Of a stretch of 23,560 nucleotides of DNA, positions 3,372 through 19,936 are shown one piece after another; the first letter of the stretch is position 1; every line of letters begins with the position of its first letter. The translations under genes were made by a program, and so were the position numbers. Source of the DNA: a virus; the IMG/VR virus record IMGVR_UViG_3300037071_001564, positions 1-23,560 of that record; one strand, given 5' to 3'. The notes beneath the pieces were generated by a model, which was given only the letters and a program-made list of their open reading frames with translations, had not been told where the DNA came from and made no database searches.

Positions 3372-3410
3372 GTGGTTCTCCTTCCTTCTGCGGGGAACGG
3401 AAACTGCGGG

Positions 3411-3446
3411 GCCGACGGCCCTCGTCTAGCGGCGGGGGCCGTCGGC
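3411..3446 (-). terminator. GC-rich hairpin over a stop codon, possible terminator/attenuator
   Basis: GCCGACGGCC (3411-3420) and GGCCGTCGGC (3437-3446) form a perfect 10-bp stem. The 16-nt loop contains the stop codon of the signal-peptidase-II-like gene (3426-3428). No T-run follows, so it is at best an actinobacterial-style terminator or an RNA stability element between the second early operon and the replication genes. Confidence 0.45.
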
Positions 3447-5790: not shown

Positions 5791-5966
5791 GACCCGACCT
5801 GCACGAAGTCCTTACCGAACTGCCAGGCGGCAGAAGCGGTAGCGATAGACCGGTACCAGCGGCGCTGGCCCTCATACCGCACCATCTCACGCATCTGGTG
5901 CTGACAGCTGCGGATCGTGCGTCGCTGGATCTGAAGTCCGAGTGTGTGCGGGGCGGGCTGGTTCAT
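5787..5966 (-). CDS. hypothetical protein, 59 residues, first gene of the ERF operon
   Basis: ATG 5966 lies 5 bases after the conserved leader dyad GACGACTCC...GGAG-type site, with GAGGAGGA as its Shine-Dalgarno. The frame can be extended upstream to 6017, but that would run through the -10 box and leader, so 5966 is the real start. The peptide is basic and Arg/Gln-rich (HTLGLQIQRRTIRSCQHQMR, then YEGQRRWYRS). No family is recognised. Small basic early phage proteins often bind host factors or nucleic acid, but nothing here proves it. Confidence 0.75.
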   Translation of the reverse strand: MNQPAPHTLGLQIQRRTIRSCQHQMREMVRYEGQRRWYRSIATASAAWQFGKDFVQVGS

Positions 5967-5971
5967 GTCGT

Positions 5972-5985
5972 CTCCTCCTCGGGAG
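5972..5985 (-). promoter_or_regulatory. leader dyad over the ribosome site, CTCC/GGAG version
   Basis: On the minus strand CTCCCGAGGAGGAG can form a 4-bp stem (CTCC/GGAG) with loop CGAGGA, which contains part of the Shine-Dalgarno. It lies 5 bases before ATG 5966. Compared with the other three copies (GTCC/GGAC), the outer pair is changed on both sides, so pairing is kept. Confidence 0.6.
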
Positions 5986-6007
5986 TCGCTATCGATTGAC
6001 ACTCCGG

Positions 6008-6036
6008 ATTCAATCACACGTCGTCGTGGTTGTCAA
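6008..6036 (-). promoter_or_regulatory. cassette promoter 2 (ERF operon)
   Basis: On the minus strand there is TTGACA (6036-6031), a 17-nt spacer and TTGAAT (6013-6008), preceded by TGA (extended -10). The -10 begins the dyad TTGAATCCGGAGTGTCAA (6013-5996), whose TTGA and TCAA ends are inverted. The previous gene's stop (6014-6016) lies in the spacer. It is one of four copies of the same promoter-leader cassette. Confidence 0.75.
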
Positions 6037-6511
6037 GGGGCCGCGGCCGCTTCCCGCTCGACGGATGCCGACCCCTGTTACGTGTCCGGTGCTTCGCCCG
6101 CACACCGGTGTCCCACATCCCCGACTTCATCCGCCGCTGACGGTCGGCGTCCCACTGCCGCGCGAGATGGATCCGCTCGGTGTCGACCATCTCGCGGTGG
6201 ATCACCGTCAGCACGAACCAGCACCGCTTGAAGCGCTCCCGGTCGTACTGCTTCGCCGGGGCGATCACGGCGACCGTCGACTCTCCCTCGTCCCACACGT
6301 ACCGCGTCGTCCGCCCGTCGCTCGACGTCCGCTCGACCGTCCGGATCCACGACGGCTTCGACTTCGACATCCGCTGCGCCTGGAGCGCCTGCTTCACGAG
6401 CGCGTACACCGCCGACGCCGCCGACCGATGGTTCGCCGCGTCGGGGTGCCGCTCACGGAACCGCTCCTGCGCGTGGACGGACACGACCACCCCGACCTCG
6501 TCGGCGTTCAC
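6014..6511 (-). CDS. hypothetical protein, 165 residues
   Basis: I start this at GTG 6511 (MNADEVGVVVSVHAQERFRERHPD), which overlaps the previous stop (GTGA) and follows GGAGGTGGCAGC. The frame from 6643 is Arg/Pro-rich and implausible before that. The 'VHAQERFRERHP' opening, the beta-rich centre (SWIRTVERTSSDGRTTRYVW, STVAVIAPA) and KRCWFVLTVIHREM resemble small phage proteins with a BrnT/RelE-like alpha-beta layout, but I cannot assign a family. The C-terminus is strongly basic (MWDTGVRAKHRTRNRGRHPS). The stop falls inside the next promoter. It is the last gene of the 8168-6014 operon. Confidence 0.75.
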   Translation of the reverse strand: MNADEVGVVVSVHAQERFRERHPDAANHRSAASAVYALVKQALQAQRMSKSKPSWIRTVERTSSDGRTTRYVWDEGESTVAVIAPAKQYDRERFKRCWFVLTVIHREMVDTERIHLARQWDADRQRRMKSGMWDTGVRAKHRTRNRGRHPSSGKRPRPLDNHDDV

Positions 6512-6996
6512 GCTGCCACCTCCGTCCCGTACCGGTCGCGGTGGATCCTCCACGCCCGGAACGCCGCGAGGTCGCAGCGCAACTCGACGTCGACGCGGCG
6601 GGATCCGGAGCCGCGACGATGTCGCCGGTCGCCGAGCCGCCACTGCCGGTGGTGCTCGGCCTCGTGCGCCGTGACCGCGACGAGCGCCTCCCGCCAGTCG
6701 GCGAGGGGGAACGTCCGGCCGCCCTCCCGCTTCCGGTCGTACGGCACGTAGTCATCGATCTTCCGGTCGGGCCTCGGCAGTTTCACGAGGATCACCGGCC
6801 TGTCCTCCCCGGACTCGGGGTACCAGTAGTCGCGGGCGCGGCCGCGGGTGTACCCGTCCTTCGACCAGGACACCTTGACGTGGATCCAGTCGGCGACGTC
6901 GAGGGCGCGAAGCTCGCGCATCACGAGCGTCCGGATCTCGCGGGTCGGGTACGACGTGTCGTTGTCGAGCCTGACGGTCGGGCCTCTACGCCTCAT
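6508..6996 (-). CDS. putative HExxH zinc metalloprotein
   Basis: This 162-residue protein starts at ATG 6996, overlapping the upstream gene by 11 nt. The key signature is VAVTAHEAEHHRQWR (HEAEH at 111-115), the HExxH zinc motif of metallopeptidases. It is followed by RVDVELRCDLAAFRAWR (134-150), where E138 or D142 could be the third ligand, as in gluzincin-like proteins. The N-terminal half is alpha/beta with a charged RKREGGRTFP segment. A zinc-dependent protease or SprT-like nucleoprotein peptidase role is possible, but overall family membership is not established. It lies in an early-type operon next to the ADP-ribosyltransferase-like gene, so host takeover is a reasonable guess. Confidence 0.7.
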   Translation of the reverse strand: MRRRGPTVRLDNDTSYPTREIRTLVMRELRALDVADWIHVKVSWSKDGYTRGRARDYWYPESGEDRPVILVKLPRPDRKIDDYVPYDRKREGGRTFPLADWREALVAVTAHEAEHHRQWRLGDRRHRRGSGSRRVDVELRCDLAAFRAWRIHRDRYGTEVAA

Positions 6997-7543
6997 GGGG
7001 AAGCACCCCCGTCTCCAGGTACGTCGCGGTCTGCTCCTCCGACATCAGCGCCCGGATCGGCTCGACCCGGACGACGCGTCCGGCCACCACCTCGAACTCC
7101 TCCCGGGTCGTGATGAACCCGAGCACCTCGACGCACATGCCCTGGAACACGACCGGGGTCGCGTTGTCGCGGCGGATGCCGAGGAACCCGGCGCGCATCC
7201 CGGTCAGGTACCGGGCGAACCACTCGGCCTTCTCCTGGTCGAGCGTCCACGACAGCGCCGCCGCCGTGTCGTCGTCATGCCAGGCACCGCGGTACACACG
7301 CACCGGCGTCTCCGGCAGGATCGCCTCGTCGGACAGCACCGGCGCGCACCGCCGGAACTCCTCGCGAAGCTCGACCGCCCACGGCGCGAGCGCGTCGCAC
7401 ATGTTGAACCAGTACGCCAGCAGCGCCCGGCCCTCCTCCACGGTTGCCTCGCGGACGCAGGCGAGCAGCACCGCTGCCCTGTCCTCCGACCCGACGAGCG
7501 CCAGCCGCTCATCCCACCGATCGATGTCGACGGCTCCGTTCAC
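6986..7543 (-). CDS. ADP-ribosyltransferase-like protein (tentative)
   Basis: GTG 7543 overlaps the previous stop (GTGA). The 185-residue protein has an N-terminal helical part (1-75), then motifs in the order expected for an R-S-E mono-ADP-ribosyltransferase: VRVYRG (Arg85), LSWTLDQEKAEWFA (Ser98-Trp-Thr100, then a helix), and GFITTREEFEVVAGRVVRV (Glu149-x-Glu151) near the end. The 'YRG ... SWT...A.WFA ... R.E.E.VV' pattern is seen in many uncharacterised phage and bacterial proteins thought to have this fold. Such enzymes move ADP-ribose from NAD to a target, as T4 Alt and ModA do to host RNA polymerase and other proteins. The call rests on motif order and is not certain. Confidence 0.7.
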   Translation of the reverse strand: MNGAVDIDRWDERLALVGSEDRAAVLLACVREATVEEGRALLAYWFNMCDALAPWAVELREEFRRCAPVLSDEAILPETPVRVYRGAWHDDDTAAALSWTLDQEKAEWFARYLTGMRAGFLGIRRDNATPVVFQGMCVEVLGFITTREEFEVVAGRVVRVEPIRALMSEEQTATYLETGVLPHEA

Positions 7544-7965
7544 GGTCGCACCTCCACGTCATCGCAGAACCATCCCGCCGTGATCCCCTCGTCGGCGAGC
7601 CACCGCTCCTTCGTCCCGTCGAAGCACTCGACCAGAACCGCCGGGCCGATCCGGACGTCGCGGCCAGCGTCGTCGCTGTAGTCGCCGTCCTCCTCCGTGA
7701 CGCCGGTCACGAGACCGACGACACGTCCGTCGGACACGACCTCCATGCCCTCCCGGATCTCGACATTGTTGCGGTCGCGGATCTTGACGGGCGGCACCGG
7801 CCGCTCGTAGTCGACCAGGACGCGGCCGTGGTCGGGGCACCAGCCGCCGCCGTCGACCATCTGATCGGTCGTGGTCTGTCCGCACTTCGGGCAGTACGCC
7901 ATCTTCGTCTCCTCCCAGTAGGGGCTGAACTCGCCGCGCTCGCGGCCGTCGTCGGGGCCGGTCAC
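7540..7965 (-). CDS. zinc-ribbon protein with beta-barrel-like C-terminus
   Basis: GTG 7965 overlaps the previous stop (GTGA), and the first 21 codons all end in G or C, which supports this start. However, ATG 7902 (MAYCPKCG) has a stronger Shine-Dalgarno (GGGAGGAGACGAAG), so a second, shorter product is possible. Residues 25-46 form a zinc-ribbon-like site: C25-P-K-C28 and C43-P-D-H46. Residues 60-115 (IREGMEVVSDGRVVGLVTGV...) look like a small beta-barrel of the PRC/DUF2171 kind. The last third is acidic, with W and C residues. Function is unknown. It may bind nucleic acid or protein through the zinc site. Confidence 0.8.
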   Translation of the reverse strand: MTGPDDGRERGEFSPYWEETKMAYCPKCGQTTTDQMVDGGGWCPDHGRVLVDYERPVPPVKIRDRNNVEIREGMEVVSDGRVVGLVTGVTEEDGDYSDDAGRDVRIGPAVLVECFDGTKERWLADEGITAGWFCDDVEVRP

Positions 7966-8168
7966 GACCAGCCCTCGACGATCTCGGTGCGGGCGACCTT
8001 CCGGCTGTCGACACCGGCGATCTGGCGGCGGGTGCGGAGGTCGATCCCGCGGGCGAGCCGCGCGGCCTCGGCCTCGATGCGCTCCGGGGTGCCGCTCCGC
8101 TTCCGGCCGTGGCCGATCTGCGATCCGTCCTTCGCGTAGAAGTGGATCGTGACTCGTGCTGCACTCAT
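7962..8168 (-). CDS. hypothetical protein, 68 residues, first gene of accessory operon
   Basis: The ATG at 8168 lies 5 bases after the conserved leader dyad, and the stop overlaps the next GTG. The longer frame reaching 8399 would read through the leader, promoter and a hairpin, so it was not used. The protein begins with a strand-like MSAARVTIHFYAKDGSQIGH and continues with a charged helix (ERIEAEAARLARG). No family is recognised. Confidence 0.75.
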   Translation of the reverse strand: MSAARVTIHFYAKDGSQIGHGRKRSGTPERIEAEAARLARGIDLRTRRQIAGVDSRKVARTEIVEGWS

Positions 8169-8173
8169 CTCGT

Positions 8174-8187
8174 GTCCTCCTCGGGAC
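8174..8187 (-). promoter_or_regulatory. leader dyad over the ribosome site, GTCC/GGAC version
   Basis: On the minus strand GTCCCGAGGAGGAC forms a GTCC/GGAC stem around the loop CGAGGA, 5 bases before ATG 8168. It is identical to the copies at 18963-18976 and 19873-19886. Confidence 0.6.
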
Positions 8188-8209
8188 TCGCTTGCTTCTG
8201 ACACCACGT

Positions 8210-8237
8210 ACTCTAGCAGGTTCTCGGGAGATGTCAA
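8210..8237 (-). promoter_or_regulatory. cassette promoter 1 (accessory operon)
   Basis: On the minus strand there is TTGACA (8237-8232), a 16-nt spacer and TAGAGT (8215-8210), with TGC before the -10. A separate inverted repeat, TCTCGGG (8222-8228) with CCCGAGA (8239-8245), brackets the -35 and could be an operator. The -10 is followed by the conserved GTGTCA. Confidence 0.7.
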
Positions 8238-8248
8238 CCCCGAGATGC

Positions 8249-8274
8249 GGAGGGCGACCCGAGAGCCGCCCTCC
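8249..8274 (-). terminator. hairpin after the lysis genes, probable terminator
   Basis: GGAGGGCG (8249-8256) pairs with CGCCCTCC (8267-8274) around a 10-nt loop. It lies between the last membrane-protein gene and the accessory-operon promoter, where transcription of the late genes would be expected to end. There is no T-run. Confidence 0.5.
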
Positions 8275-8302
8275 CCACCGTCATGCTTCGCCGCCCCGGA
8301 CT

Positions 8303-8782
8303 CTACCCGGTCGTCTTCGGCAGCGCCGTCGGAGGAACCGGCTGCGCGGGCACCACGATCCCCGTCCCAGGCACCGGCGTCTCCCCCGGTGTCAGCCACG
8401 CCTGCACCGCCCGGACGAGGGAAGTCCCGATCGCGAGCATCCCCGCGACGGCGGCGGCCTTCCCGGCGTCGAGGTCAGGAGCGGACAGCACGCCTTCCAC
8501 GAGCGCGACGAACCCGACGAGCAGCGTCGTGATGCCGGTCAGGACAACCTCGGCGTACGCCGTCGGCACATGGAGCGCGTTCGCGACGGCGGTCGCCAGC
8601 TGCGGAATGAACACCCGGATCGCGCGGACTCCCGCGACGAGCGCCGCGATGCTCGCGGCCGCGGCGAGCGCTGCCGCCTGCTGGTAGTTCGGTGCGGCGA
8701 GGATGCCGGTCGCGAGCGCGAGGAACGCGATCGCCGCGTCCCGCACCGCTGCCCGGCCCGCCGCCGATAGCACTGACCTCAT
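8303..8782 (-). CDS. multi-span membrane protein, holin candidate
   Basis: ATG 8782 overlaps the previous stop (ATGA) and follows AGGAGGCACC. The 159-residue protein has about four Ala/Leu/Val-rich spans (near residues 15-31, 35-53, 78-100 and 107-127), a basic N-terminus (MRSVLSAAGRAAVRD) and a Pro/Thr/Val-rich hydrophilic tail. It is the last of five membrane proteins downstream of the peptidase gene. A holin or accessory lysis role is likely from position. The exact holin class cannot be told. Confidence 0.7.
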   Translation of the reverse strand: MRSVLSAAGRAAVRDAAIAFLALATGILAAPNYQQAAALAAAASIAALVAGVRAIRVFIPQLATAVANALHVPTAYAEVVLTGITTLLVGFVALVEGVLSAPDLDAGKAAAVAGMLAIGTSLVRAVQAWLTPGETPVPGTGIVVPAQPVPPTALPKTTG

Positions 8783-9222
8783 GGTGCCTCCTCCTGTTGG
8801 GTGCCTCCTGGCCCGGCAGGAGCCGGGTACGCAGCCTTACAGTCGACCAGCCACGGCCGGTCGGGATCCGGGTAAGCGTCCGGCCGCACGTTCAGCGCTT
8901 CGAGCCGCTTCGTCGTCTCACCGACCGACCTAACGAACCTGGCGCGGATCTCCGCGGACATAGCCTCGGCCGCCACGACCTCGGCGTCCGCGAGCTTCTC
9001 GGTGTAAAGCCAGTGCAGCCCCTCACGCGCGACGTTCGCGCGGCCGCACCCGACCTGAAGCGCGAGCGCCGATTCCTCGTCGGCGGCGCGGAGCCGGTCG
9101 ATCTCGGCGATCGCGGCGTCAGCCCGGTCGGCCGCGGTGTTCGCCCTGCCGATCGCGGACACCATCGCCACGGCCAGCACCACGATCGCGAAGACCATCA
9201 CGTACAGCAACGCGCGCCTCAC
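8779..9222 (-). CDS. single-span membrane protein of the lysis module
   Basis: I start this at GTG 9222 (MRRALLYVMVFAIVVL), which overlaps the previous stop (GTGA). A longer frame from 9282 adds implausible Arg/Gly-rich sequence. A basic N-terminus and one hydrophobic span (about 4-24) precede a long helical, Ala/Glu-rich soluble region with VGCGRANVAREGLHWLY near residues 55-75 and a Pro-rich end. This is an N-in, C-out topology. It could be a spanin-like or antiholin-like accessory, but no lipobox is visible. The pair of Cys residues in the outside part is notable. Confidence 0.7.
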   Translation of the reverse strand: MRRALLYVMVFAIVVLAVAMVSAIGRANTAADRADAAIAEIDRLRAADEESALALQVGCGRANVAREGLHWLYTEKLADAEVVAAEAMSAEIRARFVRSVGETTKRLEALNVRPDAYPDPDRPWLVDCKAAYPAPAGPGGTQQEEAP

Positions 9223-9749
9223 GAGTCGTCCTCCAGCAGCGGCGTGATGTCGACCTCCAGGTTCCTGGCGAGCGTCTGGCACTGCGGCAGCGTCCGTCGC
9301 ATCCCCCAGAGGCCACCGCTGGCCTCGTCACCGATCACGATCCTCGACAGTGCCGCCCGAGCCTTCATCGCCCGCTTCAGCGCCCGCTGCCGCGTCGGGT
9401 TCAGAGGCGACCCCGGCTCCCGCACGATCGCGTCTCGCGCACCCTCGACCTGGGACTGGAGCGCCGCGTCGAGGCCGTCGAGCGCCGACAGCAGCAGCGG
9501 CACGTCAGTCACACCCCGTAGGCACGCCACGACCTGCTGCGTGTTCGACGCCGTCATCTCGGCCTCCTCCCGCGCGAGGATCTCCGCCCGCAGAGACTGG
9601 AGTTCGGCGCGCTGGTCGAGGAGCGTCCCACGCTGCCCATACGCGATCGCGAGCAGCCCGGCCATGACGAGGGTCACGACGATCACGAACAGCGTCGCGA
9701 TCCGCCAGCGCGCCCGAGACGACACCCTCCCGATCAGACGGTCAGGCAC
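9219..9749 (-). CDS. membrane-anchored coiled-coil protein of the lysis module
   Basis: GTG 9749 lies 8 nt inside the previous gene. The 176-residue protein has a basic head, one span (about 17-38, RIATLFVIVVTLVMAGLLAI), then a likely coiled coil (TLLDQRAELQSLRAEILARE, about 43-65) and a helical C-terminal domain. The topology matches the next gene, so the two may form a pair. It resembles i-spanins in layout only; actinobacterial hosts lack a classical outer membrane, which makes that name uncertain. Confidence 0.7.
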   Translation of the reverse strand: MPDRLIGRVSSRARWRIATLFVIVVTLVMAGLLAIAYGQRGTLLDQRAELQSLRAEILAREEAEMTASNTQQVVACLRGVTDVPLLLSALDGLDAALQSQVEGARDAIVREPGSPLNPTRQRALKRAMKARAALSRIVIGDEASGGLWGMRRTLPQCQTLARNLEVDITPLLEDDS

Positions 9750-9984
9750 CAGGGTCGCCTCCTCGGCCGTTGCCGTTCGACTTCCGCCCGGCGATCGCTG
9801 CTCCGCCGAACAGCCCGGTCGCGACGGTCAGCGCGATCACATGGACTTCGGTATCCACCGGCTTCCCCGTGAACTGGCCGCCCAAAGTAGCGATGGCCCA
9901 GACAAGGAAGATGAAGCACCCGAGTCCGAGGAGCACCGTCTCGCGGACAGCGTTCTGGTCACGCCTACGGGCCACCTTCCGCAC
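9742..9984 (-). CDS. small two-span membrane protein, holin-like
   Basis: This 80-residue protein begins at GTG 9984, overlapping the previous gene by 20 nt. It has a basic N-terminus (MRKVARRRD), spans at about 17-36 and 46-66, and a short hydrophilic tail with KSNGNGRGGD. Two spans, small size, charged ends and position close behind the peptidase gene fit a class II holin. Other membrane genes nearby are equally possible holins. Confidence 0.7.
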   Translation of the reverse strand: MRKVARRRDQNAVRETVLLGLGCFIFLVWAIATLGGQFTGKPVDTEVHVIALTVATGLFGGAAIAGRKSNGNGRGGDPGA

Positions 9985-10159
9985 GCTTCCCCCGCAGGCG
10001 TCCGGAGCGTTCCACAGCAGAGACCAGCAGCAGCAGGCAGGGCACCGCGACGGCGGCGACGCCCGGGTTTCCCACTGCGAGCAGGACTCCCCACGCCACC
10101 AGCGCCAGTGGCAGCGTGAGCTTCATCAGTGCGACGAGCAGCAGTTCGATCACGATCAT
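9965..10159 (-). CDS. 64-residue membrane protein, holin-like
   Basis: The true start is ATG 10159 (MIVIELLLVALMKLTLP), which overlaps the upstream stop (ATGA). The larger frame reaching 10675 is an Arg-rich shadow before this. The peptide is two hydrophobic segments (about 1-29 and 33-49) joined by GNPG, with a basic tail (ERSGRLRGKRAEGG). It is a candidate small holin or holin regulator. Confidence 0.7.
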   Translation of the reverse strand: MIVIELLLVALMKLTLPLALVAWGVLLAVGNPGVAAVAVPCLLLLVSAVERSGRLRGKRAEGGP

Positions 10160-11055
10160 CTCCGCAGCGCCTCCCACGTCGCGACGGTCGCAGAGTCGGG
10201 ACGCCACAGTCGTCTCGGGCCGGGCCACGTACGGTAGTCGGGGAACGGGCCGGAGCCGGACGCCAGGATCGAGAACGACATGGTGGTGCGGTCGACCGGC
10301 ACCGGGATCAGCGCGAGGTTGCCGAGGCACGCTCCGACCGTCAGCTGCGGATGGTCGGCCCCGTACACCTGCGGGTCGATGTCCGCGCCGGGCACCGAGA
10401 GCGCCGTCGCGTAGTCGTACTGCCTGGGACTGGACGCCGTGTCGCTGGAGTTCACTGACCAGCCGAGCGGGACGGGAGCGCCTCCCTCGTTCCAGCCGCG
10501 CAGGAACGCCTCCGTCTTCCAGCGGCCCTCGCCCTCCGCCCACGTCTCCCCGTTCGCCTTCCATCCGCGGAGCGTCGGCAGCCGCCGACAGATCGCCGCG
10601 GCGTCCCGTCCGTCCTGCAACGGGTCGCTCCCCTGCCCGTACGTGCCCCACCCGACCTTCTCCCACTTCGCCCACTGCGACAGCGCCATCTCGGCCTCGT
10701 TCGCGGCTGCGTACGTGGTGTGCAGCAACTGCACGTACACCGCTGTCCAGCCGAGCGTGAACGCCCTCTCACGTGACGGCCCGTTGAAGTTGGAGAGGCC
10801 GCCCTCCGTGAACGCCGCGTCCCTTCGCCAGATGCCAGCGAGCGCGCTGACCGGCGGCGTCGGCGTCGGCGGGTTCTCCCGGCAGAGGATCTGGATGCCC
10901 TGCGCGAACGGATCCCCGCACGTGTTCTTCCTCGTGCCCGCGTACTCCGCCGCGAGCTTCCTCGCGTCGATCAGGTTCCCGAGCTTCGCCGCCCACGACA
11001 CGTAGGTGCCGCTCCCGAAGATCCGGGCCAGCCCCTCCCGCCCGGCAGCGCTCAC
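10156..11055 (-). CDS. hypothetical 299-residue protein after the lysin
   Basis: GTG 11055 overlaps the peptidase stop (GTGA). I do not recognise this protein. It is aromatic-rich, especially in Trp (WAAKLGNLIDARKLAAEYAG, SQWAKWEKVGWGTYGQGS, GWKANGETWAEGEGRWKT). It contains two Cys near the N-terminus and a helical N-terminal half. The C-terminal half is strand-rich with TMSFSILASGSGPFPDYR. There is no signal peptide. Its position between the peptidase and the first membrane protein suggests a lysis or virion role, for example cell-wall binding, but there is no direct sequence support. Confidence 0.75.
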   Translation of the reverse strand: MSAAGREGLARIFGSGTYVSWAAKLGNLIDARKLAAEYAGTRKNTCGDPFAQGIQILCRENPPTPTPPVSALAGIWRRDAAFTEGGLSNFNGPSRERAFTLGWTAVYVQLLHTTYAAANEAEMALSQWAKWEKVGWGTYGQGSDPLQDGRDAAAICRRLPTLRGWKANGETWAEGEGRWKTEAFLRGWNEGGAPVPLGWSVNSSDTASSPRQYDYATALSVPGADIDPQVYGADHPQLTVGACLGNLALIPVPVDRTTMSFSILASGSGPFPDYRTWPGPRRLWRPDSATVATWEALRR

Positions 11056-11678
11056 GTCGCGAGCGCCTTCGTCAGCTGCACGCCCACCGTGGGGGAGCCG
11101 GTCGTGTAGTCGGGGCCGTGGCCGGTGCTGCCGTACTTCAGCCACTCCTGGATCAGCGGCCGGGTGTCGAGGGCGTAGTGGATGTGGGGGCCGCCCTGGT
11201 CGGCCCGGATCTTCGCGACCGACGACAGCTTCGCGCCCTTGATGAACGACGCGCCCATCGCCGGACGGGACGCGCAGTGGAGGAACAGATGCACGATCCT
11301 GGAGACGCCGCGCACCTTGAAGCCGACGCCACCGTCGCTGCCGGTGTGGTCGATCACCTTGCACGCCTCCGGCGCGAGCACCGCCGTGCCGACCCGGACG
11401 ATGGTGTCATCGAACGCGGGCCACACCCCGTCGAACCCGTCGGTGTTGTGCGTCAGTTGGTACAGCAGCACCGTCTTCCCTCCCGGCTTCACCGGGCCGA
11501 GCGCCGGTACCGGCGGGACGGGCGGACGTTCGAGGGAAGCCTCGACCTCATCGATCAGCTTCATCGCCTGCTTCCACCTGAACGCTTCGGGTGTGTACCC
11601 GTGCTCGGTCTCCTTCAGGATGGCTTCGGCGTCCTGGAGCTTGTCGAGCCGCTGCTGATCGGTCAGCACCCCCGCCAT
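11052..11678 (-). CDS. M23-like peptidase, candidate endolysin
   Basis: The start is ATG 11678 (MAGVLTDQQRLDKL); upstream sequence has only weak ribosome-site match and GTG four codons in is an alternative. Residues 1-50 are a helical N-terminal region. A Pro-rich linker (51-66) leads to a domain (68-175) with the M23 layout: GVWPAFDD (D90/D91), GTAVLAPEACKVIDHTG, IVHLFLHCA (H134) and GGPHIHYALD (H165-x-H167). In M23 peptidases the Asp and the HxH His bind zinc, and an internal His is catalytic. The usual first His before the Asp is not obvious, so activity needs confirmation. It would cut peptidoglycan cross-links. Confidence 0.75.
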   Translation of the reverse strand: MAGVLTDQQRLDKLQDAEAILKETEHGYTPEAFRWKQAMKLIDEVEASLERPPVPPVPALGPVKPGGKTVLLYQLTHNTDGFDGVWPAFDDTIVRVGTAVLAPEACKVIDHTGSDGGVGFKVRGVSRIVHLFLHCASRPAMGASFIKGAKLSSVAKIRADQGGPHIHYALDTRPLIQEWLKYGSTGHGPDYTTGSPTVGVQLTKALAT

Positions 11679-11719
11679 GCTACGGGCCGTCCCGGAGATC
11701 CGGTTCGGCCGCGTGCCGC

Positions 11720-12211
11720 CTACACGTCGATCGTCCAGCCGCCGGACAGGTCGAAGATGATTCCCGTGCCGATGCCGGGTACGGCCGTGCCGTCGATCCG
11801 CATCTCGTGGGCGGAGACCGGCACGAGCGCGGAGTCGGTGCCACCGGTCGAGTCGGGGTCGTACGCAACGACGCAGATGTCGAGGATGTCTCCGGCGTCG
11901 ACGTCTGGGCTGCCGAACGTCACGAGCGGCAGTGTCAGTAGCGTGCTGTTGTTCGCGTCGTCTGGTGCCCACGCCGACAGGTCGGTGTTGTCGAGGACGA
12001 TCCGGGCGTACCCCGTGTTCGTGACTTCGTCGTAGCCTCCGGCCAGGATCGCGGCGACGGTGTCGAAGTCGCGCAGTCCCTCGATGCCGTCGGCGCTGCC
12101 GTCCGCGAGGGCGAGCAGCACGAGCACCGCGTTCGCCGGATCTGAGACGAGCACCCTCTGGTATAGCTCGACGCCACGTCCCTTCGCGATGTTGAACTCG
12201 ATCGCGCTCAT
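11720..12211 (-). CDS. hypothetical protein after the tail-tip genes
   Basis: ATG 12211 overlaps the stop of the 55-residue gene (ATGA). The 163-residue protein starts MSAIEFNIAKGRGVELYQRV, then VLVLLALADGSADGIEGLRDFDTVAAIL and TGYARIVLDNTDLSAWAPDD. The rest is a strand-rich domain (STLLTLPLVTFGSP, DILDICVVAYDPDS, TGIIFDLSGGWTIDV). These phrases are common in phage virion proteins lying between tail-tip and lysis genes. I take it as a structural protein of unknown location. Confidence 0.8.
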   Translation of the reverse strand: MSAIEFNIAKGRGVELYQRVLVSDPANAVLVLLALADGSADGIEGLRDFDTVAAILAGGYDEVTNTGYARIVLDNTDLSAWAPDDANNSTLLTLPLVTFGSPDVDAGDILDICVVAYDPDSTGGTDSALVPVSAHEMRIDGTAVPGIGTGIIFDLSGGWTIDV

Positions 12212-12375
12212 CCGGTCGGGGGCACCTCCCCCACGACCGTCTGGTCGGTCGTGTTGTCGATGTAGCGGACAACGGAGTCGAGGGCGATGGTCGCCTGCTT
12301 CGCCGCTGCCGGGACGACACGGTACGGTGGCACGACGTACGACACATCGGCTTCCTGGGCGATGCTTCGACTCAT
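12208..12375 (-). CDS. hypothetical 55-residue protein
   Basis: This frame (MSRSIAQEADVSYVVPPYRV... ending TVVGEVPPTG) runs from ATG 12375 to a TGA that overlaps the next gene's ATG (ATGA at 12208-12211). It fills an otherwise empty gap, uses the phage's preferred codons, and has AGGATC upstream as a weak ribosome site. It is a small soluble protein with no recognisable motif and probably belongs with the neighbouring virion genes. Confidence 0.7.
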   Translation of the reverse strand: MSRSIAQEADVSYVVPPYRVVPAAAKQATIALDSVVRYIDNTTDQTVVGEVPPTG

Positions 12376-12418
12376 CGCAGGGATCCTACTTCCCCCGCCA
12401 CCCGGGGCCGTGCCGCGA

Positions 12419-13039: not shown

Positions 13040-13046
13040 CTGCTCA

Positions 13047-14141: not shown

Positions 14142-14144
14142 GAT

Positions 14145-14636
14145 CTACCCCGAGATGTCCGGGTCTGGTGCCCAGAGCGTGAAGTCGGAGAACGTCGGCT
14201 CGTAGATGTTGTCGCCGCCGAACTTGATCTCCTGGCCGGGCAGCCCGTACATGCACGAGATCGACCGGGCCGCCGACGTCGCGTCCGTCCACGCCAGCGT
14301 CGCGGCCGACGTCAGCTGCGCTTCGAGCGCGGCGACGACGGCCTTCTGCAACGCCACGAGCTTCTGGATGTACTCGGTCTTGTTCGTCGCGGGGGTGCCG
14401 CCGGACAGCGTGCCGATGTGGACGCTGCCGGAGAACACGATCACCCGGCCCGCGAAGAACGCGCCCTGGAGGTCGAGGTCTCCGTTGTCCTGGGAAGCCG
14501 GGTCGATCTGCCTGCGGATCGGCTTCCCGTCCAGCCCGACGATGTCGTTGAACGTCGGCGTGACGAGGGTGTCGGTGTCCTTCGGCCCATTGATCGTGAT
14601 CCCGGCGTACGTGTACGTCGCGCAGATGTCAGCCAT
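14145..14636 (-). CDS. distal tail (Dit)-like protein
   Basis: ATG 14636 overlaps the tape measure stop (TGATG), the usual position for a distal tail protein. The 163-residue protein begins MADICATYTYAGITINGP and NDIVGLDGKPIRRQIDPASQ, with strand-rich ends and a helical centre (YIQKLVALQKAVVAALEAQL, about 88-108). Length and location are typical of a short Dit lacking carbohydrate-binding insertions. The assignment is from synteny, since Dit sequences diverge strongly. Confidence 0.7.
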   Translation of the reverse strand: MADICATYTYAGITINGPKDTDTLVTPTFNDIVGLDGKPIRRQIDPASQDNGDLDLQGAFFAGRVIVFSGSVHIGTLSGGTPATNKTEYIQKLVALQKAVVAALEAQLTSAATLAWTDATSAARSISCMYGLPGQEIKFGGDNIYEPTFSDFTLWAPDPDISG

Positions 14637-17600
14637 CAGACTCCGCCGCCCCCGTCGAAGCGCGCCTGCTCCATCACCCTCGCCTGCCGCGCCTGCCAGA
14701 AGTCGCCCATCGCGGCGGCCCGCTGCCCCGTCGCCTTCGCGTACTTCGTGCCGCCGTTCCCGCCGGTCGAGGTGTTCCCCTCCGTCGCCGCCGTGTTGCG
14801 GTCGAGCGCCGCGATCAGCCGGTCGATCTGCGGGTCAGCCGCCCGGGTCGGCCCCGAGATCGCCGCGGTTACCGACGTAGACCCGCGCGCCTTCGCGGCC
14901 GCCTGGAGTTGCTTCGACCCGGCCACGATCGACTTGTTGAAGTCGAACCCGGACAGCGGATCGATCCCGACGTCGCCGATGTTCGACGCGATGCTCCCGA
15001 ACAGTTCCGCGTTCTCGGTCAGGAACCCGGCGAGCGTCTTCCCCCCGGCCCCCTCCTTCTCCTTCTCCAGCAGGCTCCGCAGGGCGGCGCGCTTCTGCTC
15101 GACCGCGAGGAGCGCGTCACGCTGCGCCTTCGACCCGGCCTTCGCGCCGATCGCGACCTTCCGCCAGAACTGGATCTCGGCCCGCAGTCCCTTCTCCTGC
15201 GCGGCCTCGTCGCCACGCAGCGACGCGATCTCCGTCAGCGTCGACAGCCTGTCCGCCAGGTCGTCCGTGCGGGACTGAGCGGCCTCTACAGCGTCGGCGG
15301 CCATGTCGGTCTTGATCTGCTTCCCGTCCGCCACGGCCCGCGACAGCGCGTCCCTGAGCACGTCGAGCGCCTGGTTTCGGATCTCGACGTCCTTCACCCG
15401 CTTCTTCACCAGGACGATCTGGGAGCGGAGGACGTCCTGGAGCGCCGTGTTCGCGGCCTGGTCGTTCTTCAGTCCCTTCGTTCCCTCGGCCGCGATCACC
15501 GCGCGCTCCTCGTCGCCGCGGCCGATCTCCAGCCCGGTCACGAAGTCTCGGTCGCGCTTCTCCGCCGCCGTCTTCGCCCTGTCGGCGTTCTGCTTCGCCG
15601 TGTTCGCGGCGGCCTCCTGGTCGGCCGCGATGCCCGACTCGATCCCCTCGATCTGCTGCGTCGTCTGCGCCAGCTGCGCCCGCAGTGTGCGGCGCTGCTC
15701 GACCCGCGCCTCGGACGGGTTCTCGATCTTCTCGATCCTCTCGATCGCCTCGGCGATCCCGGCCCGCTTCTTCTTCAGCGCCGCCAGCTGCCCGCCGGTG
15801 TCGCCCTCCGCGATCGCCTTGTTCACCGACTCGTCGGCGGCCTCCCCGATCGAGTTGGCTTGCTTCACCCCGGCGGTCGCGGCCTCCGCGATCTTCGACG
15901 CGAGCGTCTGCCCGATCTTCACGCCCTCCTCCGCCGCCGTCGCCGTCGCGGCCCGGGAGCCGTCCTCGATCGCTGACCGGAGGGCCGCACCGATCAGCGG
16001 CCCCGACCTGGCGACAGCGTGGGCGGACTCCTCGATGCCGGAGCGTGCGGCCGCGCCGAGACCCACGAACACCGACTTCGGCAGCGCCTTCAGGATCGCC
16101 CGACCCGTCGCCGTCGTCTCCAGCTGCACGGCCTCCAGCGGAGTGATGACACCGTCGAGCAGAACCCGCCGCACCTCCGGCCCCATGTCCCGGAACGCAT
16201 TGATGAGCTTCTCGGTACCGGCCGGGCTGTCGTTCAGCGACTTCGAGATCGCCTGGATCTGCGCGATGATCTCCTTCGCTTCCTTCCCGATCCCCGTCGG
16301 CAGGAAGTCGACCGACGCCCGGTCTTGCCGCTCTTCCTCTAGCTCCGCGAGACGCTCCGTCAGTTCGCCGAGGTCGGCGTTTACGACGTCGAACTCGCCG
16401 CCACCGAGACCCTTCAGCGCCTGCACCGCACCGCGGATCGCACCAGCCAGGCCGCCGACAGCACCGGCCCCGGCCCCGACGGCCGGGAGGAGCGCCCCGC
16501 CGATCTCGACCGAGAGAGCGCCAACCTCGTTCTTCGCGAGTTGGATCTGCGACGCGGTCGTCTCGAACCGCTGCGCCGCCTCGTTCTGGAGCGCGTTGTT
16601 CTTATCCCACTCCGTCGCCCCGATCTTCAGCGAGTTCGACAGGAGGTCGCCCGCACCGGCCGACCGGAGCAGCGCGTCCCGGACACGGATGCCGCCGAGG
16701 CCGAGCCGGTCGAGCGTCGCGAACACCGACCCGCCCTCCTCGTCGATCCGGGCCAGCCCCCGAATGAACGCGGTGACCGCTTCCGCCGGGGCCGTCTTGA
16801 ACGACCGGGCGAAGTCCTCGCTCGACTGGCCCGCCACCTCGGCGAACGCCGCGAGCTTCTTCCCTCCAGCGTCGACCGACGACGCGATCCGGATGAACGT
16901 CGTGGAGATCGCGGTGCCCCCGGCCTCGGCGTTCAGACCGACGGACGCGAGCGCCGCGCCGAACGCGAGGATCTGATCCTGCGTCAGCCCGATCTGGTGT
17001 CCGGCACCCGAGATCCGCAGACCGAACTCCACGATCTCGGCCTCGGTCGACGCCGTCTTGTTGCCGAGCGCGACGATCGTAGATCCGAGGTTGTCGAACT
17101 GCGACTGCGGCAGCTGCGTGATGTTCGCCAGCCGAGCGAGCGAGTCGGCCGCCTGCTCCGACGTCAGGTTCGTCGTGACGCCGAGTTCGGCGACCGTCTT
17201 CGTGAACTCGGTGATCCCTTCCGTCTCGATGCCCAGCTGACCGGCGGCCGCACCGATCGCCGACAACTCGGTGGTCGTGACGGGGATCTCGGTCGAGAGG
17301 TCGATGAAGTCGGAGCGGATCTGCTGAAGCACCGGCTCCGTCGCCTGCACCGTCTTCCGGACACCCGCGAACGCGGACTCGAACTCGATCGCGGCCTGCG
17401 CCGTCTTCACCGCCGCGAGGCCGATGCCGACACCGACACCGGCCGCGCCGAGCGCCGCGATCTGCGTCGACCGTGCGGCAACACTGCCGAACTGGTTGAA
17501 CGCCTGCCCGGCCGTGCCGAGGTTCCTGGTCGTGGACGACAGACCCCGGTCGATGCCCGACCCGTCGAACCTCGGGGTGAACGCCGACGCCGCGAGGCTG

Positions 17601-17686
17601 CGCTCGATGCCGTCCTTCACCCGGCCGGAGAAGTTCCGGAAGTCCGGGACGATGTCAACGAACGCGGTCTCGATGGGTTCAGCCAT
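14636..17686 (-). CDS. tape measure protein
   Basis: The largest gene of the window, 1016 residues, starts at ATG 17686. Residues about 60-330 match the TP901-type tape measure core: a hydrophobic IAALGAAGVGVGIGLAAV (76-93), FESAFAGVRKTVQATEP, TELSAIGAAAGQLGIE, and GLNAEAGGTAISTTFIRIAS. A helical, Ala/Glu/Lys-rich rod follows (about 430-950), including QEAAANTAKQNADRAKTAAEK. By the usual 0.15 nm per residue the tail would be about 150 nm. The protein sets tail length and enters the tail tube. It is made with the G/T chaperones encoded just upstream. Confidence 0.95.
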   Translation of the reverse strand: MAEPIETAFVDIVPDFRNFSGRVKDGIERSLAASAFTPRFDGSGIDRGLSSTTRNLGTAGQAFNQFGSVAARSTQIAALGAAGVGVGIGLAAVKTAQAAIEFESAFAGVRKTVQATEPVLQQIRSDFIDLSTEIPVTTTELSAIGAAAGQLGIETEGITEFTKTVAELGVTTNLTSEQAADSLARLANITQLPQSQFDNLGSTIVALGNKTASTEAEIVEFGLRISGAGHQIGLTQDQILAFGAALASVGLNAEAGGTAISTTFIRIASSVDAGGKKLAAFAEVAGQSSEDFARSFKTAPAEAVTAFIRGLARIDEEGGSVFATLDRLGLGGIRVRDALLRSAGAGDLLSNSLKIGATEWDKNNALQNEAAQRFETTASQIQLAKNEVGALSVEIGGALLPAVGAGAGAVGGLAGAIRGAVQALKGLGGGEFDVVNADLGELTERLAELEEERQDRASVDFLPTGIGKEAKEIIAQIQAISKSLNDSPAGTEKLINAFRDMGPEVRRVLLDGVITPLEAVQLETTATGRAILKALPKSVFVGLGAAARSGIEESAHAVARSGPLIGAALRSAIEDGSRAATATAAEEGVKIGQTLASKIAEAATAGVKQANSIGEAADESVNKAIAEGDTGGQLAALKKKRAGIAEAIERIEKIENPSEARVEQRRTLRAQLAQTTQQIEGIESGIAADQEAAANTAKQNADRAKTAAEKRDRDFVTGLEIGRGDEERAVIAAEGTKGLKNDQAANTALQDVLRSQIVLVKKRVKDVEIRNQALDVLRDALSRAVADGKQIKTDMAADAVEAAQSRTDDLADRLSTLTEIASLRGDEAAQEKGLRAEIQFWRKVAIGAKAGSKAQRDALLAVEQKRAALRSLLEKEKEGAGGKTLAGFLTENAELFGSIASNIGDVGIDPLSGFDFNKSIVAGSKQLQAAAKARGSTSVTAAISGPTRAADPQIDRLIAALDRNTAATEGNTSTGGNGGTKYAKATGQRAAAMGDFWQARQARVMEQARFDGGGGV

Positions 17687-17697
17687 CAGTCACCACC

Positions 17698-18063
17698 TCA
17701 GCGCATCGTCGGCATCCCGGCCCGTCGCATGACGGCCTCCAGCTTCTTCATCTCCCGCTCCTCCCGCCGGAGGTCAGCCCGCGCCTGCGAGTCCCGCACA
17801 CGCCCCTCCATGTCGTCGCCGAGCGTCACGGCCGCGAACGGCGCGAGCTTCTCCAGCGCGTCCGTCAGCGAATCACCGGCAGCCATCCGGTACCGCATCA
17901 GGAGCGTGTACGCCGCGTCGAGGAACTCCCGCAGGTTCATGCTGCCGGGGTCGCCTCCGGCGAGGCCGACCTCGCCCTGGATGTACGAGCGGTGCTCCCA
18001 CGCCCAGCGCCCGAGGGCGAGGGCGTCATCGTAGGGCGGGCGGACTGCGTCTCCACCATCCAC
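17698..18063 (-). CDS. tail assembly chaperone, T frame (expressed by frameshift)
   Basis: This frame is -1 relative to the G gene and overlaps its end (17937-18063). It shows coding character from about YDDALALGRWAWEHRSYI onward, with MNLREFLDAAYTLLMRYRM and a charged end (REEREMKKLEAVMRRAG). The GTG at 18063 is weakly placed, so it is probably translated only as the C-terminal part of a G-T fusion of about 225 residues, as in lambda and most siphophages. The G-T fusion loads the tape measure and tail subunits during tail assembly. The stop lies 11 nt before the tape measure ATG. Confidence 0.85.
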   Translation of the reverse strand: MDGGDAVRPPYDDALALGRWAWEHRSYIQGEVGLAGGDPGSMNLREFLDAAYTLLMRYRMAAGDSLTDALEKLAPFAAVTLGDDMEGRVRDSQARADLRREEREMKKLEAVMRRAGMPTMR

Positions 18064-18374
18064 TTCTCCAGTTCCTTCAGGACGGCGTACGGCACCGCGT
18101 TCTCGGTGCGCGCCCGGATCTCGTCGTAGCGCTTGTGGTCGGTCTCCTTCAGGAACGACTTGATCCTGGAGTCGAGCCGCTCCAGCGCCTCCGCCGCGGC
18201 GTTCGGGTTCTCGTAGTCGTCGCCCTCACCACGCAGGCGGGCGCGCTCCTCGGCGAGGCCGTCTTCGTACTCGGCCATCACCTCGGGACGGACGTACACC
18301 ATCACGAACGCTTCCCCGCCGATCGTGAAGCCGAGGTCGGCGGCGGCGGGCATCAGAGCGTCGAAGTCCTTCAC
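17937..18374 (-). CDS. tail assembly chaperone, G frame
   Basis: GTG 18374 follows a strong AGGAGGAACC. The 145-residue protein has a coding-like body to about residue 113 (KDFDALMPAAADLGFTIGGE, RPEVMAEYEDGLAEERARL, YAVLKELEKWMVETQ). After this it becomes Ser/Thr/Pro/Arg-rich (PTMTPSPSGAGRGSTART), the look of an out-of-frame shadow of the T frame. The G/T pair is the standard frameshifted chaperone set before the tape measure gene. The shift must lie roughly between 18000 and 18050. I found no perfect XXXYYYZ heptamer there. Confidence 0.85.
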   Translation of the reverse strand: MKDFDALMPAAADLGFTIGGEAFVMVYVRPEVMAEYEDGLAEERARLRGEGDDYENPNAAAEALERLDSRIKSFLKETDHKRYDEIRARTENAVPYAVLKELEKWMVETQSARPTMTPSPSGAGRGSTARTSRARSASPEATPAA

Positions 18375-18463
18375 GGTTCCTCCTGAACTGTCGGGGTCTC
18401 GTGCCTCCGCTCTGGAGGGTACGCCCGCGCCCGGCAGAACGCGGCGAACTCGTGCCGACGTGC

Positions 18464-18492
18464 GACGGCCCCCGGTCTATGCGGGGGCCGTC
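18464..18492 (-). terminator. strong hairpin ending moron unit 2
   Basis: GACGGCCCCCG (18464-18474) pairs perfectly over 11 bp with CGGGGGCCGTC (18482-18492) around a 7-nt loop. It lies between the 144-residue gene and the chaperones. No T-run follows, so it may act as an actinobacterial-type terminator, or reduce rather than stop readthrough. Confidence 0.6.
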
Positions 18493-18522
18493 CAGACGCT
18501 GCCTGGTGTGTTCAGCGCTTCT

Positions 18523-18957
18523 TCATTCGGCCTCCTTCTCGAAGTACACGACGCCGGGGTGATCCTTCACTGCGTCCCAGGCTGCCCGGTGCGACTCCTT
18601 CGTCTTCGCGAGCTTGATCGTGGAGTCCCAGGAGGAGAACCCGTGGCCGTAGCCGCCCTCGATCTTCACCGTGACCATCCCGGGGTTCAGGCTGTCATCC
18701 TCGATGCTGATGACGGGGCCGACGATCCAGCCGCTCATCGTCTGCCAGCGAACCTTCATCCCGACGCGGAGTTCGGTCAGCGCGATCTCGGGGCGGGCGA
18801 TGGGATCCCAGATCTTCTTCGCGGCGACGGCTGCCTTCGTGTACACCTGGCCGGTGCCGCCGCACCCGTAGCAGCGGTCGCCGTGGATCTGGTTGTAGCT
18901 GTAGCGGCCAGATCCTCCGCACCTGCTGCACTCCGTGGTATCGAACTTCAGGGCCAT
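18523..18957 (-). CDS. DnaJ-type zinc-finger protein (moron unit 2)
   Basis: ATG 18957 follows the conserved leader dyad by 5 nt. The frame to 19008 reads through the leader and was not used. The 144-residue protein opens with two DnaJ-like knuckles: C10-S-R-C13-GGSG and C29-Y-G-C32-GGTG, spaced to bind one zinc. There is no J-domain. A middle region (VGMKVRWQTMSGWIVGPVISIED) suggests a small beta-barrel, and the end is charged helical. Its own promoter and hairpin, and the lack of any virion link, mark it as an accessory insertion among the tail genes. Function is unknown; it may modulate protein folding or bind nucleic acid. Confidence 0.8.
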   Translation of the reverse strand: MALKFDTTECSRCGGSGRYSYNQIHGDRCYGCGGTGQVYTKAAVAAKKIWDPIARPEIALTELRVGMKVRWQTMSGWIVGPVISIEDDSLNPGMVTVKIEGGYGHGFSSWDSTIKLAKTKESHRAAWDAVKDHPGVVYFEKEAE

Positions 18958-18962
18958 CTCGT

Positions 18963-18976
18963 GTCCTCCTCGGGAC
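18963..18976 (-). promoter_or_regulatory. leader dyad over the ribosome site, GTCC/GGAC version
   Basis: This is the same 14-nt dyad (GTCCCGAGGAGGAC on the minus strand) as at 8174-8187, 5 bases before ATG 18957. The loop CGAGGA holds part of the Shine-Dalgarno. Confidence 0.6.
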
Positions 18977-18998
18977 TCGAACTCTCTTGACACTCCGT

Positions 18999-19027
18999 AT
19001 TCAAGCACACCCTGCCGGGGTTGTCAA
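18999..19027 (-). promoter_or_regulatory. cassette promoter 3 (moron unit 2)
   Basis: On the minus strand there is TTGACA (19027-19022), a 17-nt spacer and TTGAAT (19004-18999), with TGC before the -10. The -35 lies in the palindrome GGGTTGACAACCC, and the -10 starts the dyad TTGAATACGGAGTGTCAA (19004-18987). The gp10-like gene's stop (19024-19026) is inside the -35. Confidence 0.75.
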
Positions 19028-19341
19028 CCCTTCGCGGCCTTCAGCGCCGGAACGAGGAACGGGAACTTCTTCCCGTTCCTGGTCTGCCCCGTCTCCAGGT
19101 ACAGCCCGTAGATCACATTCGTGCCGACGCGGCAGACCAGCTGCCCGTTCACGGTGCGAAGCTCGTGCGTGATCGAGCCGCGCAGGTTGTTCGTGTCGAC
19201 GCGCGGCCCTGGCCGCCCCGACGCGTTCTTCTTCGCCTGGTTCTGCACCCGGATGCCGCGGCGGGTGAGGTCGCGGGCGAGGCCGGAGCCGTTCAGCAGC
19301 TGCCGGTACGCCGAGGCGTGGGAGACGGTGTGGATCGGCAC
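19024..19341 (-). CDS. HK97 gp10-like tail completion protein
   Basis: GTG 19341 (MPIHTVSHASAYRQLLNG) starts a 105-residue protein; the ribosome site is weak. The pattern GLARDLTRRGIRVQNQAKKN, then RVDTNNLRGSITHEL, then CRVGTNVIYGLYLETGQTR and PFLVPALKAAKG is characteristic of HK97 gp10-like phage proteins ('L..SI......VGTN..YA.Y.E.G......PFL.PAL'). These act at the head-tail joint or tail end during assembly. It stands between two promoter-bearing accessory units, and its stop lies inside the next promoter. Confidence 0.85.
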   Translation of the reverse strand: MPIHTVSHASAYRQLLNGSGLARDLTRRGIRVQNQAKKNASGRPGPRVDTNNLRGSITHELRTVNGQLVCRVGTNVIYGLYLETGQTRNGKKFPFLVPALKAAKG

Positions 19342-19362
19342 CCTGGACAGGGTACTCCGCCA

Positions 19363-19398
19363 GAACGACGGACGGCCCCGAAGGGCCGCCGGTCGTTC
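19363..19398 (-). terminator. long hairpin with UUCG loop ending moron unit 1
   Basis: Two 16-nt arms (19363-19378 and 19383-19398) pair with two mismatches. On the minus strand the loop is TTCG closed by C-G, the extra-stable UUCG tetraloop. It follows the 62-residue gene by 12 nt and precedes the gp10-like gene. Without a T-run, it is a likely terminator or RNA-end protector. Confidence 0.6.
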
Positions 19399-19410
19399 CC
19401 GAGGTGGAAC

Positions 19411-19599
19411 CTATGTCGAGGCGATCGTGCGGGCGTCGTCGTAACTGTTGCCGCGTCCGACCTCGACCCAGTTCTGGCCGTCCCACTTCTGCACAACCCA
19501 CCAGACGAGACCGGCGATCGACTCGGGCCTGGTGCGGTGGCCGACGGAGTACCTCCATCCGTCGGCCGAGTACGTCCGGCTGAAGCTCGGCCGCAGCAT
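19411..19599 (-). CDS. hypothetical 62-residue protein (moron unit 1)
   Basis: ATG 19599 follows the previous stop after one base, with GGAAGGTGG as its ribosome site. The protein is aromatic and basic in its first half (MLRPSFSRTYSADGWRYSVG), then WWVVQKWDGQNWVEVGRGN and a short helix. The alternating WVVQKWDGQNWVEV looks like a beta-hairpin. No family is recognised. It is paired with the winged-helix-like gene under one promoter and ends before the UUCG hairpin. Confidence 0.75.
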   Translation of the reverse strand: MLRPSFSRTYSADGWRYSVGHRTRPESIAGLVWWVVQKWDGQNWVEVGRGNSYDDARTIAST

Positions 19600-19600
19600 C

Positions 19601-19867
19601 TCAGACCGCCACCTTCCGGGGATCGTACGAGGCCCGGATCCAGTCCAGATCCTCGCCGTGTTCGGCGGCGAGCGCGACGCCCGCCTCGGTGAACATCGCG
19701 AAGACGCAGTCTTCGTCGTCCATCGTGTCGATCAGGTCGAGCTTCTTCAGGTGGGTGAGGTTGCCGCGCTGCGCGGGGGAGACAGTCACGAGCGGCATGC
19801 CGCTCCAGTTGGGGGCGTCCTCTACGAGGCCCATGAACAGTTCGAGTGAATCGGGTGTGATCTGCAT
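19601..19867 (-). CDS. small winged-helix-like protein (moron unit 1)
   Basis: ATG 19867 lies 5 bases after the conserved leader dyad. The 88-residue protein shows a winged-helix pattern: VEDAPNWSGMPLV, SPAQRGNLTHLKKLDLIDTM as helix-turn-helix, and DDEDCVFAMFTEAGVALAAE as the wing and last helix. The 'rGNLt.Lkk..Li.......fT.aG' arrangement is common in small MarR/PadR-like regulators. The end (HGEDLDWIRASYDPRKVAV) is charged. It may regulate the four cassette promoters, its own included, but this is inference. Confidence 0.8.
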   Translation of the reverse strand: MQITPDSLELFMGLVEDAPNWSGMPLVTVSPAQRGNLTHLKKLDLIDTMDDEDCVFAMFTEAGVALAAEHGEDLDWIRASYDPRKVAV

Positions 19868-19872
19868 TTCGT

Positions 19873-19886
19873 GTCCTCCTCGGGAC
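19873..19886 (-). promoter_or_regulatory. leader dyad over the ribosome site, GTCC/GGAC version
   Basis: This is the same 14-nt dyad as at 8174-8187 and 18963-18976, 5 bases before ATG 19867, carrying the Shine-Dalgarno in its loop and right arm. Confidence 0.6.
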
Positions 19887-19907
19887 TCGCTTGCTCTGAC
19901 ACCCCGT

Positions 19908-19936
19908 ATTCAAGCACACCCTGTCGGGTGTGTCAA
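19908..19936 (-). promoter_or_regulatory. cassette promoter 4 (moron unit 1)
   Basis: On the minus strand there is TTGACA (19936-19931), a 17-nt spacer and TTGAAT (19913-19908), with TGC before the -10. The spacer holds the inverted repeat CACCC-GACA-GGGTG. The -10 runs into TTGAATACGGGGTGTCAG (19913-19896), matching the other copies. It starts 4 nt after the upstream gene ends. Confidence 0.75.

Follow-up and report, generated by a model that had tools for sequence, protein, structure and literature searches.

The IMG/VR record IMGVR_UViG_3300037071_001564 is a viral contig of 23,560 bp, and the window considered here (G000) is this entire record. The phage is uncultured and its host is probably an actinobacterium, as judged from the nearest known phages, all below 60% protein identity; a megablast comparison of the window in full with 50,697 phage records returned no matches. 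On the minus strand, the genes run in the order head-tail adaptor, neck, tape measure, tail genes, Erf-like annealing protein, and replication initiation. The same strand carries four copies of a short cassette in which a promoter is joined to a leader that ends just before an ATG, and its sequence makes a host sigma-A-type promoter/leader module that coordinates expression the most likely reading.

The four blocks reported on the minus strand in a first-pass annotation are all present: cassettes A (5964–6036), B (8166–8237), C (18955–19027), and D (19865–19936). Each consists of TTGACA, 16–17 nt, an extended −10 of the form TGnTAGAGT or TGnTTGAAT, 5 nt, GTGTCA, 7–8 nt, and a leader with the consensus CGA[G/C]TCCCGAGGAGGA[C/G]ACGA, which is separated from ATG by exactly 1 nt in 4 of 4 copies. 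The arrangement holds as first described, with small corrections to the letters of the extended −10 and to the leader of cassette A, which is the variant CGACTCCCGAGGAGGAGACGA. In cassette A, the −35 TTGACA (6036–6031) is followed by the extended −10 TGATTGAAT (6016–6008; hexamer TTGAAT, 6013–6008), GTGTCA (6002–5997), a predicted Shine-Dalgarno (SD) hairpin, CGACTCC-CGAGGA-GGAGACG (5988–5969), and ATG at 5966. The corresponding elements of cassette B lie at 8237–8232, 8218–8210 (TGCTAGAGT; hexamer TAGAGT, 8215–8210), 8204–8199, 8190–8171, and 8168. Cassettes C and D have the same extended −10, TGCTTGAAT, with the hexamer TTGAAT; the elements are found at 19027–19022, 19007–18999 (hexamer 19004–18999), 18993–18988, 18979–18960, and 18957 in C, and at 19936–19931, 19916–19908 (hexamer 19913–19908), 19902–19897, 19889–19870, and 19867 in D.

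Cassettes A and B stand at operon heads. The first leads a 59-aa open reading frame (ORF; 5787–5966, minus strand) and heads the Erf/replication operon, with the Erf-like annealing protein (4299–5681) and the replication-initiation protein (2527–3825) encoded downstream, and the second leads a 68-aa ORF (7962–8168, minus strand) without a database family. Cassettes C and D lead ORFs of 144 and 88 aa. The small ORFs behind the cassettes have coding-type third-position GC (0.78–0.97), and the four proteins show no similarity to each other, as the first-pass annotation had held.

This recurrence is far above expectation, as derived by shuffling: TTGACA-N-GTGTCA occurs four times in the window against 0.01 expected, and GAGTCCCGAGGAGGACACGA with up to three mismatches occurs four times against 0.03 expected, with none of 100 shuffles reaching four. 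Convergence of ordinary strong promoters and ribosome sites with no special common role would account for TTGACA and GAGGAGG, which are consensus elements; however, it is very improbable given these counts (expectation 0.01–0.03) and given that GTGTCA and the flanks CGA[S]TCC and [S]ACGA, which lie outside the −35/−10 and SD pairing, are conserved too. It is also at odds with a search of 84,980 bacterial and archaeal genomes, where none of the 54 stretches that matched the strict leader pattern had the promoter-GTGTCA arrangement, and therefore no prophage copy was found. Beyond the four cassettes the window contains no further match, and so the claim that the element is phage-wide rests on related contigs.

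Related Contigs and the Probable Start-Site Block

When 2.9 million viral contigs were scanned for the leader pattern, only a handful matched; a search for relatives with a single protein returned none, and an alignment query was needed. The related contigs comprise G001 (IMGVR_UViG_3300037070_007140), G003 (IMGVR_UViG_3300044976_000012, 45 kb), G005 (52.7 kb), G006 (a 4.8-kb piece), and the further relatives G007, G008, G009, and G010. G001 and the window align to distinct, non-overlapping portions of G005, and their tetranucleotide correlation is 0.971, compared with 0.96–0.98 for halves of one genome and 0.86–0.90 for the other relatives. From this complementary coverage and same-genome agreement we infer that the window and G001 probably derive from a single phage, or else from phages that are very close, which gives a total of ten cassettes over ~46.5 kb.

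Six full cassettes are present in G001, three per strand, one pair of them back-to-back (7371–7475, with 25 bp between the −35 boxes, facing divergent small genes). Across the ten copies of the window and G001, no letter changes in the −35, in GTGTCA, or in the TG of the extended −10, whereas most of the spacer varies; cassette B shares a 49-nt identical stretch with one G001 copy. G003 has six leader copies, in four of which TTGACA precedes a −10 region reading AGGCATGAT, and G005 and G006 have two cassettes and one, respectively. The arrangement is kept in diverged relatives (30–50% protein identity). Cassette leaders lie directly before the Erf gene and before a DUF932 gene in G003, and in G005 a cassette is found just upstream of the genes corresponding to the Erf/replication genes. 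Outside this group, blastn of the cassette against phages gave only one 22-nt chance match, inside a Microbacterium phage gene. The first-pass annotation had named a lack of further copies in relatives as grounds for giving up its reading; the motif search in relatives did find further copies, and its claim of a regulatory cassette repeated across the phage before unrelated genes stands.

The distance between the −10 and GTGTCA is 5 nt in nine of the ten copies and 4 nt in one, although the −35/−10 spacer is either 16 or 17 nt; in keeping its place relative to the −10 while the promoter spacer varies, GTGTCA behaves as a start-site element would be expected to. In G007, G008, and G010, the matching promoter reads G[AT]GCCATG at the place of GTGTCA, and this ATG opens an ORF in 11 of the 11 cases found. 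Ten of these ORFs have at least 66 codons and one only 26, most have coding-type third-position GC, and three sit where homologues of window gene 993–1463 are found. By sequence the G[AT]GCCATG form is a near-leaderless sister of the same promoter, which would place the transcription start near the GTGTCA block, so that transcripts from the cassette would begin at or beside GTGTCA. In these hairpin-less relatives the promoters read TAGAGT-N5-G[AT]GCCATG, with ATG 11 nt past the −10 and products that often begin MKST; the sites are at 5098 (minus strand) in G007, at 16262, 41107, 46411, and 51488 (plus strand) in G008, and at 55111, 53509, 47772, 41969, 22320, and 7083 (minus strand) in G010.

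The Predicted Leader Stem-Loop

The leader can form a small stem-loop, CGA[S]TCC-CGAGGA-GGA[S]ACG, that would present the SD (CGAGGA) within a six-base loop right before ATG. Of 22 leaders compared, 19 belong to this phage group and 3 to other contigs whose promoters differ. Their variable stem pair is C-G in 13, G-C in 8, and U-G in 1, and is mismatched in none. The covariation score of this pair, whose 5′ base was left free in every search, was 0.171 compared with 0.060 for shuffled leaders, and 0 of 500 shuffles reached 0.171. An Rfam search gave no match. A pairing of the 5′-end GUGUC with GACAC before AUG was also considered and was dropped, since GTGTCA persists when the leader has GAGAC.

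Accessory Modules Among the Virion Genes

Cassettes C and D lie between virion genes, at sites that are empty in relatives. Homologues of gene 19943–20515 and of the neck gene (19027–19341) are adjacent in 5 of 6 relatives (G003, G005, G007, G008, and G010) and ~164 nt apart in G009, compared with 602 nt in the window, where the interval holds cassette D and two small ORFs. The −35 of cassette D begins 3 nt past the stop codon of gene 19943–20515. The 88-aa ORF that it leads (19601–19867) is an insertion absent from relatives, and the second gene of the module (19411–19599) encodes 62 aa with a weak DUF6087 match, below the cut-off. On the other side of the neck gene, whose stop codon is overlapped by the −35 of cassette C, 650 nt separate it from gene 17940–18374; in the three relatives where both flanking genes turned up (G010, G009, and G005), the distance is ~10–150 nt. 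This interval holds cassette C and its 144-aa ORF (18523–18957), which has a CxxC zinc-ribbon-like N-terminus. Distances in relatives were hand-corrected for unaligned ends.

Both modules, all on the minus strand, close with a terminator-like stem-loop, at 18459–18498 for C (−28.2 kcal/mol for 45 nt, z = −3.3) and at 19363–19398 for D (−30.3 kcal/mol for 43 nt, z = −4.1), and these are stronger than all 60 control windows; no stem-loop of this kind was seen after A or B. Because their sites are empty in relatives and their terminal stem-loops are strong, C and D look like morons, each with what reads as a promoter and a terminator of its own. The P22 gene pid is an example of a moron: a small orphan gene with its own promoter and terminator, inserted where relatives have none, such genes sometimes lying on the opposite strand (PMC3573128). 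The cassette modules fit this description; unlike pid, several different accessory genes here share one standard promoter-leader, which also serves the Erf/replication operon. The first-pass annotation was right that cassettes lie inside the virion genes, and its reading is refined here in that these copies lead inserted accessory genes and do not serve the virion genes.

Similar modules, which fit the same description of morons, occur in G001. The G001 plus-strand gene 9082–9579 sits between protease and glycosyltransferase genes that lie close together in G005, G006, and G003, and another (15552–15923, plus strand) has behind it a very stable stem-loop, 40 nt long and with 18 pairs. In G003, a cassette leads an enzyme-sized accessory gene (34624–35679; L023 14627–15679) for a 351-aa protein with a class II glutamine amidotransferase domain. 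PADLOC found no match among ten cassette-module proteins. Among the virion genes there are also glycosyltransferase genes (21730–22521 in the window, 8390–9040 in G001), and window gene 11723–12385 has changed place: in G005 and G006 its homologues stand between glycosyltransferase and capsid, whereas in the window it comes after the tail genes.

Insertions at exact gene boundaries, together with the 49-nt identity between cassette B and a G001 copy, could be taken to mean that the cassettes are recombination or insertion scars, repeats that let accessory genes move and whose conservation is mostly recent copying. This is improbable: the functional blocks are fixed while most spacers differ widely, both sides of the leader stem change together, and the arrangement is kept at the protein divergence given above.

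Known Systems and the Probable Function of the Cassette

The closest parallel is found in cluster K mycobacteriophages, where a SigA-like promoter and then a conserved SD-containing element directly before ATG, the extended start-associated sequence (ESAS) and start-associated sequence (SAS), are repeated (PMC3203893, PMC11373665). The cluster K SAS is the 13-bp GGGATAGGAGCCC, with sites confined to the non-structural half of the genome (PMC3203893, PMC11373665). As in cluster K, the element here occupies the ribosome site, a few nt at most from the start codon, and recurs in many copies before unrelated genes, directly downstream of what reads as a SigA-like −35/−10 promoter; the TTGACA-TGTCAA spacing of 29 nt equals that at two Adephagia sites, and GGGATAGGAGCCC also has complementary ends around AGGA. 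Unlike in cluster K, there is no 15–17 bp imperfect inverted repeat, only a 5–6 nt TTGACA/TGTCA match that is lost in relatives; cassettes here also lie among virion genes, and no integrase was found. In Microbacterium cluster EF phages such as AnnaSerena, the SAS is GGGAAAGGACCCC, the ESAS is poorly conserved, and one site is among virion genes (PMC7302621). The EF SAS likewise has complementary ends at the ribosome site, and its upstream block is centered on GTAGAG, near the TAGAGT seen here, but the SAS sequence differs and the upstream promoter here is near-consensus. In both clusters, the complementary ends are GGG…CCC around AGGA (L114, L115, L118), and one Pixie SAS reads CGGATAGGAGCCG, a matched double change, CGG…CCG, that would suit a hairpin; at other cluster K sites, however, the outer bases no longer pair.

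Microbacterium cluster EC phages such as Quhwah, which by virion proteins in the same order are distant relatives, carry TAGACTATAGGTGTAAGC repeats 21–30 bp before start codons (PMC7302621). As here, the repeat also precedes a gene inserted between MuF and protease; unlike here, no conserved SD hairpin is described for it. Quhwah has an annotated sigma factor, and tblastn found no match to it in the window or the relatives. The cluster K SAS had no match in the window with up to two mismatches, and GGGAAAGGACCCC had two 2-mismatch matches, at chance level and not at cassettes. The cluster A stoperator has the 13-bp consensus GGTGGMTGTCAAG; it too had two 2-mismatch matches in the window, at chance level, one overlapping the cassette A −35, and identity with stoperators was set aside. 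Because SAS consensus sequences are absent, the cassette, as compared by sequence, is a distinct variant that works like SAS/ESAS, of the same kind by layout and not a member by sequence, which agrees with the likeness and the difference first pointed out.

The likeness to ESAS extends to a possible operator. A dedicated phage regulator could bind the cassette, for example at TTGACA…TGTCAA, and control every copy as a true regulon, in line with a proposal made for the inverted repeats of ESAS: TTGACA-N28/29-TGTCA is present in all ten window and G001 copies, cluster K Adephagia has TTGACA-N29-TGTCAA at two sites, and the Adephagia authors consider repression through the repeats plausible (PMC11373665). 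We regard this as unlikely, because the right arm TGTCA is anchored to the −10 and not to the −35, and in G003, G005, G006, and G008/G010 the right block becomes AGTCA, GGGCCA, GTGCCA, and so on, without a matching change in the −35. The dyad, not being kept in other relatives, was not relied on. Searches of the phage records (window and relatives) with Sigma70_r4 and HTH_3 models gave nothing over the curated cut-off, and no integrase scored over the cut-off; other regulator folds are possible, and since the window, G001, and G006 are fragments these negatives cover partial genomes. Of the phage-wide regulon first proposed, then, the shared cassette stands, and no dedicated regulator emerged from these searches; plain promoters of the host polymerase, reused as parts, would account for the data just as well.

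We therefore favor as probable a portable expression module, promoter and leader together and read by the host, that serves the Erf/replication operon and inserted accessory genes. The promoter would be of the near-consensus vegetative (sigma-A) type, with TTGACA, 16–17 bp, and TGnTAGAGT or TGnTTGAAT, and host RNA polymerase would need no phage factor to use it. Starting at or next to GTGTCA, transcripts would have a ~30–35 nt 5′ untranslated region ending in the short hairpin with the SD in its loop, which may benefit translation. One cassette stands at the head of the recombination/replication operon, and others would express accessory genes that were inserted between virion genes, on either strand, together with a promoter and a putative stem-loop terminator. 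Because host polymerase would suffice, the accessory genes may be expressed early, alongside that operon and apart from the surrounding late genes.

Several observations weigh against a portable module of this form. Two G003 leaders (2233 and 3449) are without a TTGACA −35, and the −35 boxes of the G005 copies are poor (TTTACA, TTTTCA). The leader covariation concerns one stem pair, in rows that are related and with three other inner pairs fixed by the search pattern; some G003 leaders and the unrelated leaders do not preserve the two outermost pairs, and the hairpin is weak, as leaders fold no better than shuffles (unremarkable thermodynamic z-scores). Finally, the C and D stem-loops have no U tract and were not called by a T-run terminator scan.

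The role of SAS/ESAS has been an open question since 2011, and the present family is a third sequence in which a ribosome-site element has complementary ends. A broader, unlikely suggestion is that GGG-AUAGGAG-CCC of cluster K, GGG-AAAGGA-CCC of EF, and STCC-CGAGGA-GGAS here could form one functional class, an SD in a minimal-stem loop next to AUG that would be recognized by a phage or host factor favoring phage messages; accessory genes would then enter the regulon by bringing the cassette with them. The repeated G-C/C-G exchange of the stem pair is clearer here than in other SAS, which makes the hairpin idea directly testable. The cassette modules also illustrate a possible way for phages to acquire late-region genes that escape late control, in which the new gene brings along a promoter, leader, and terminator of standard form. 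Switches of this sort are known from a few phage groups, and this cassette offers clues to how they work.

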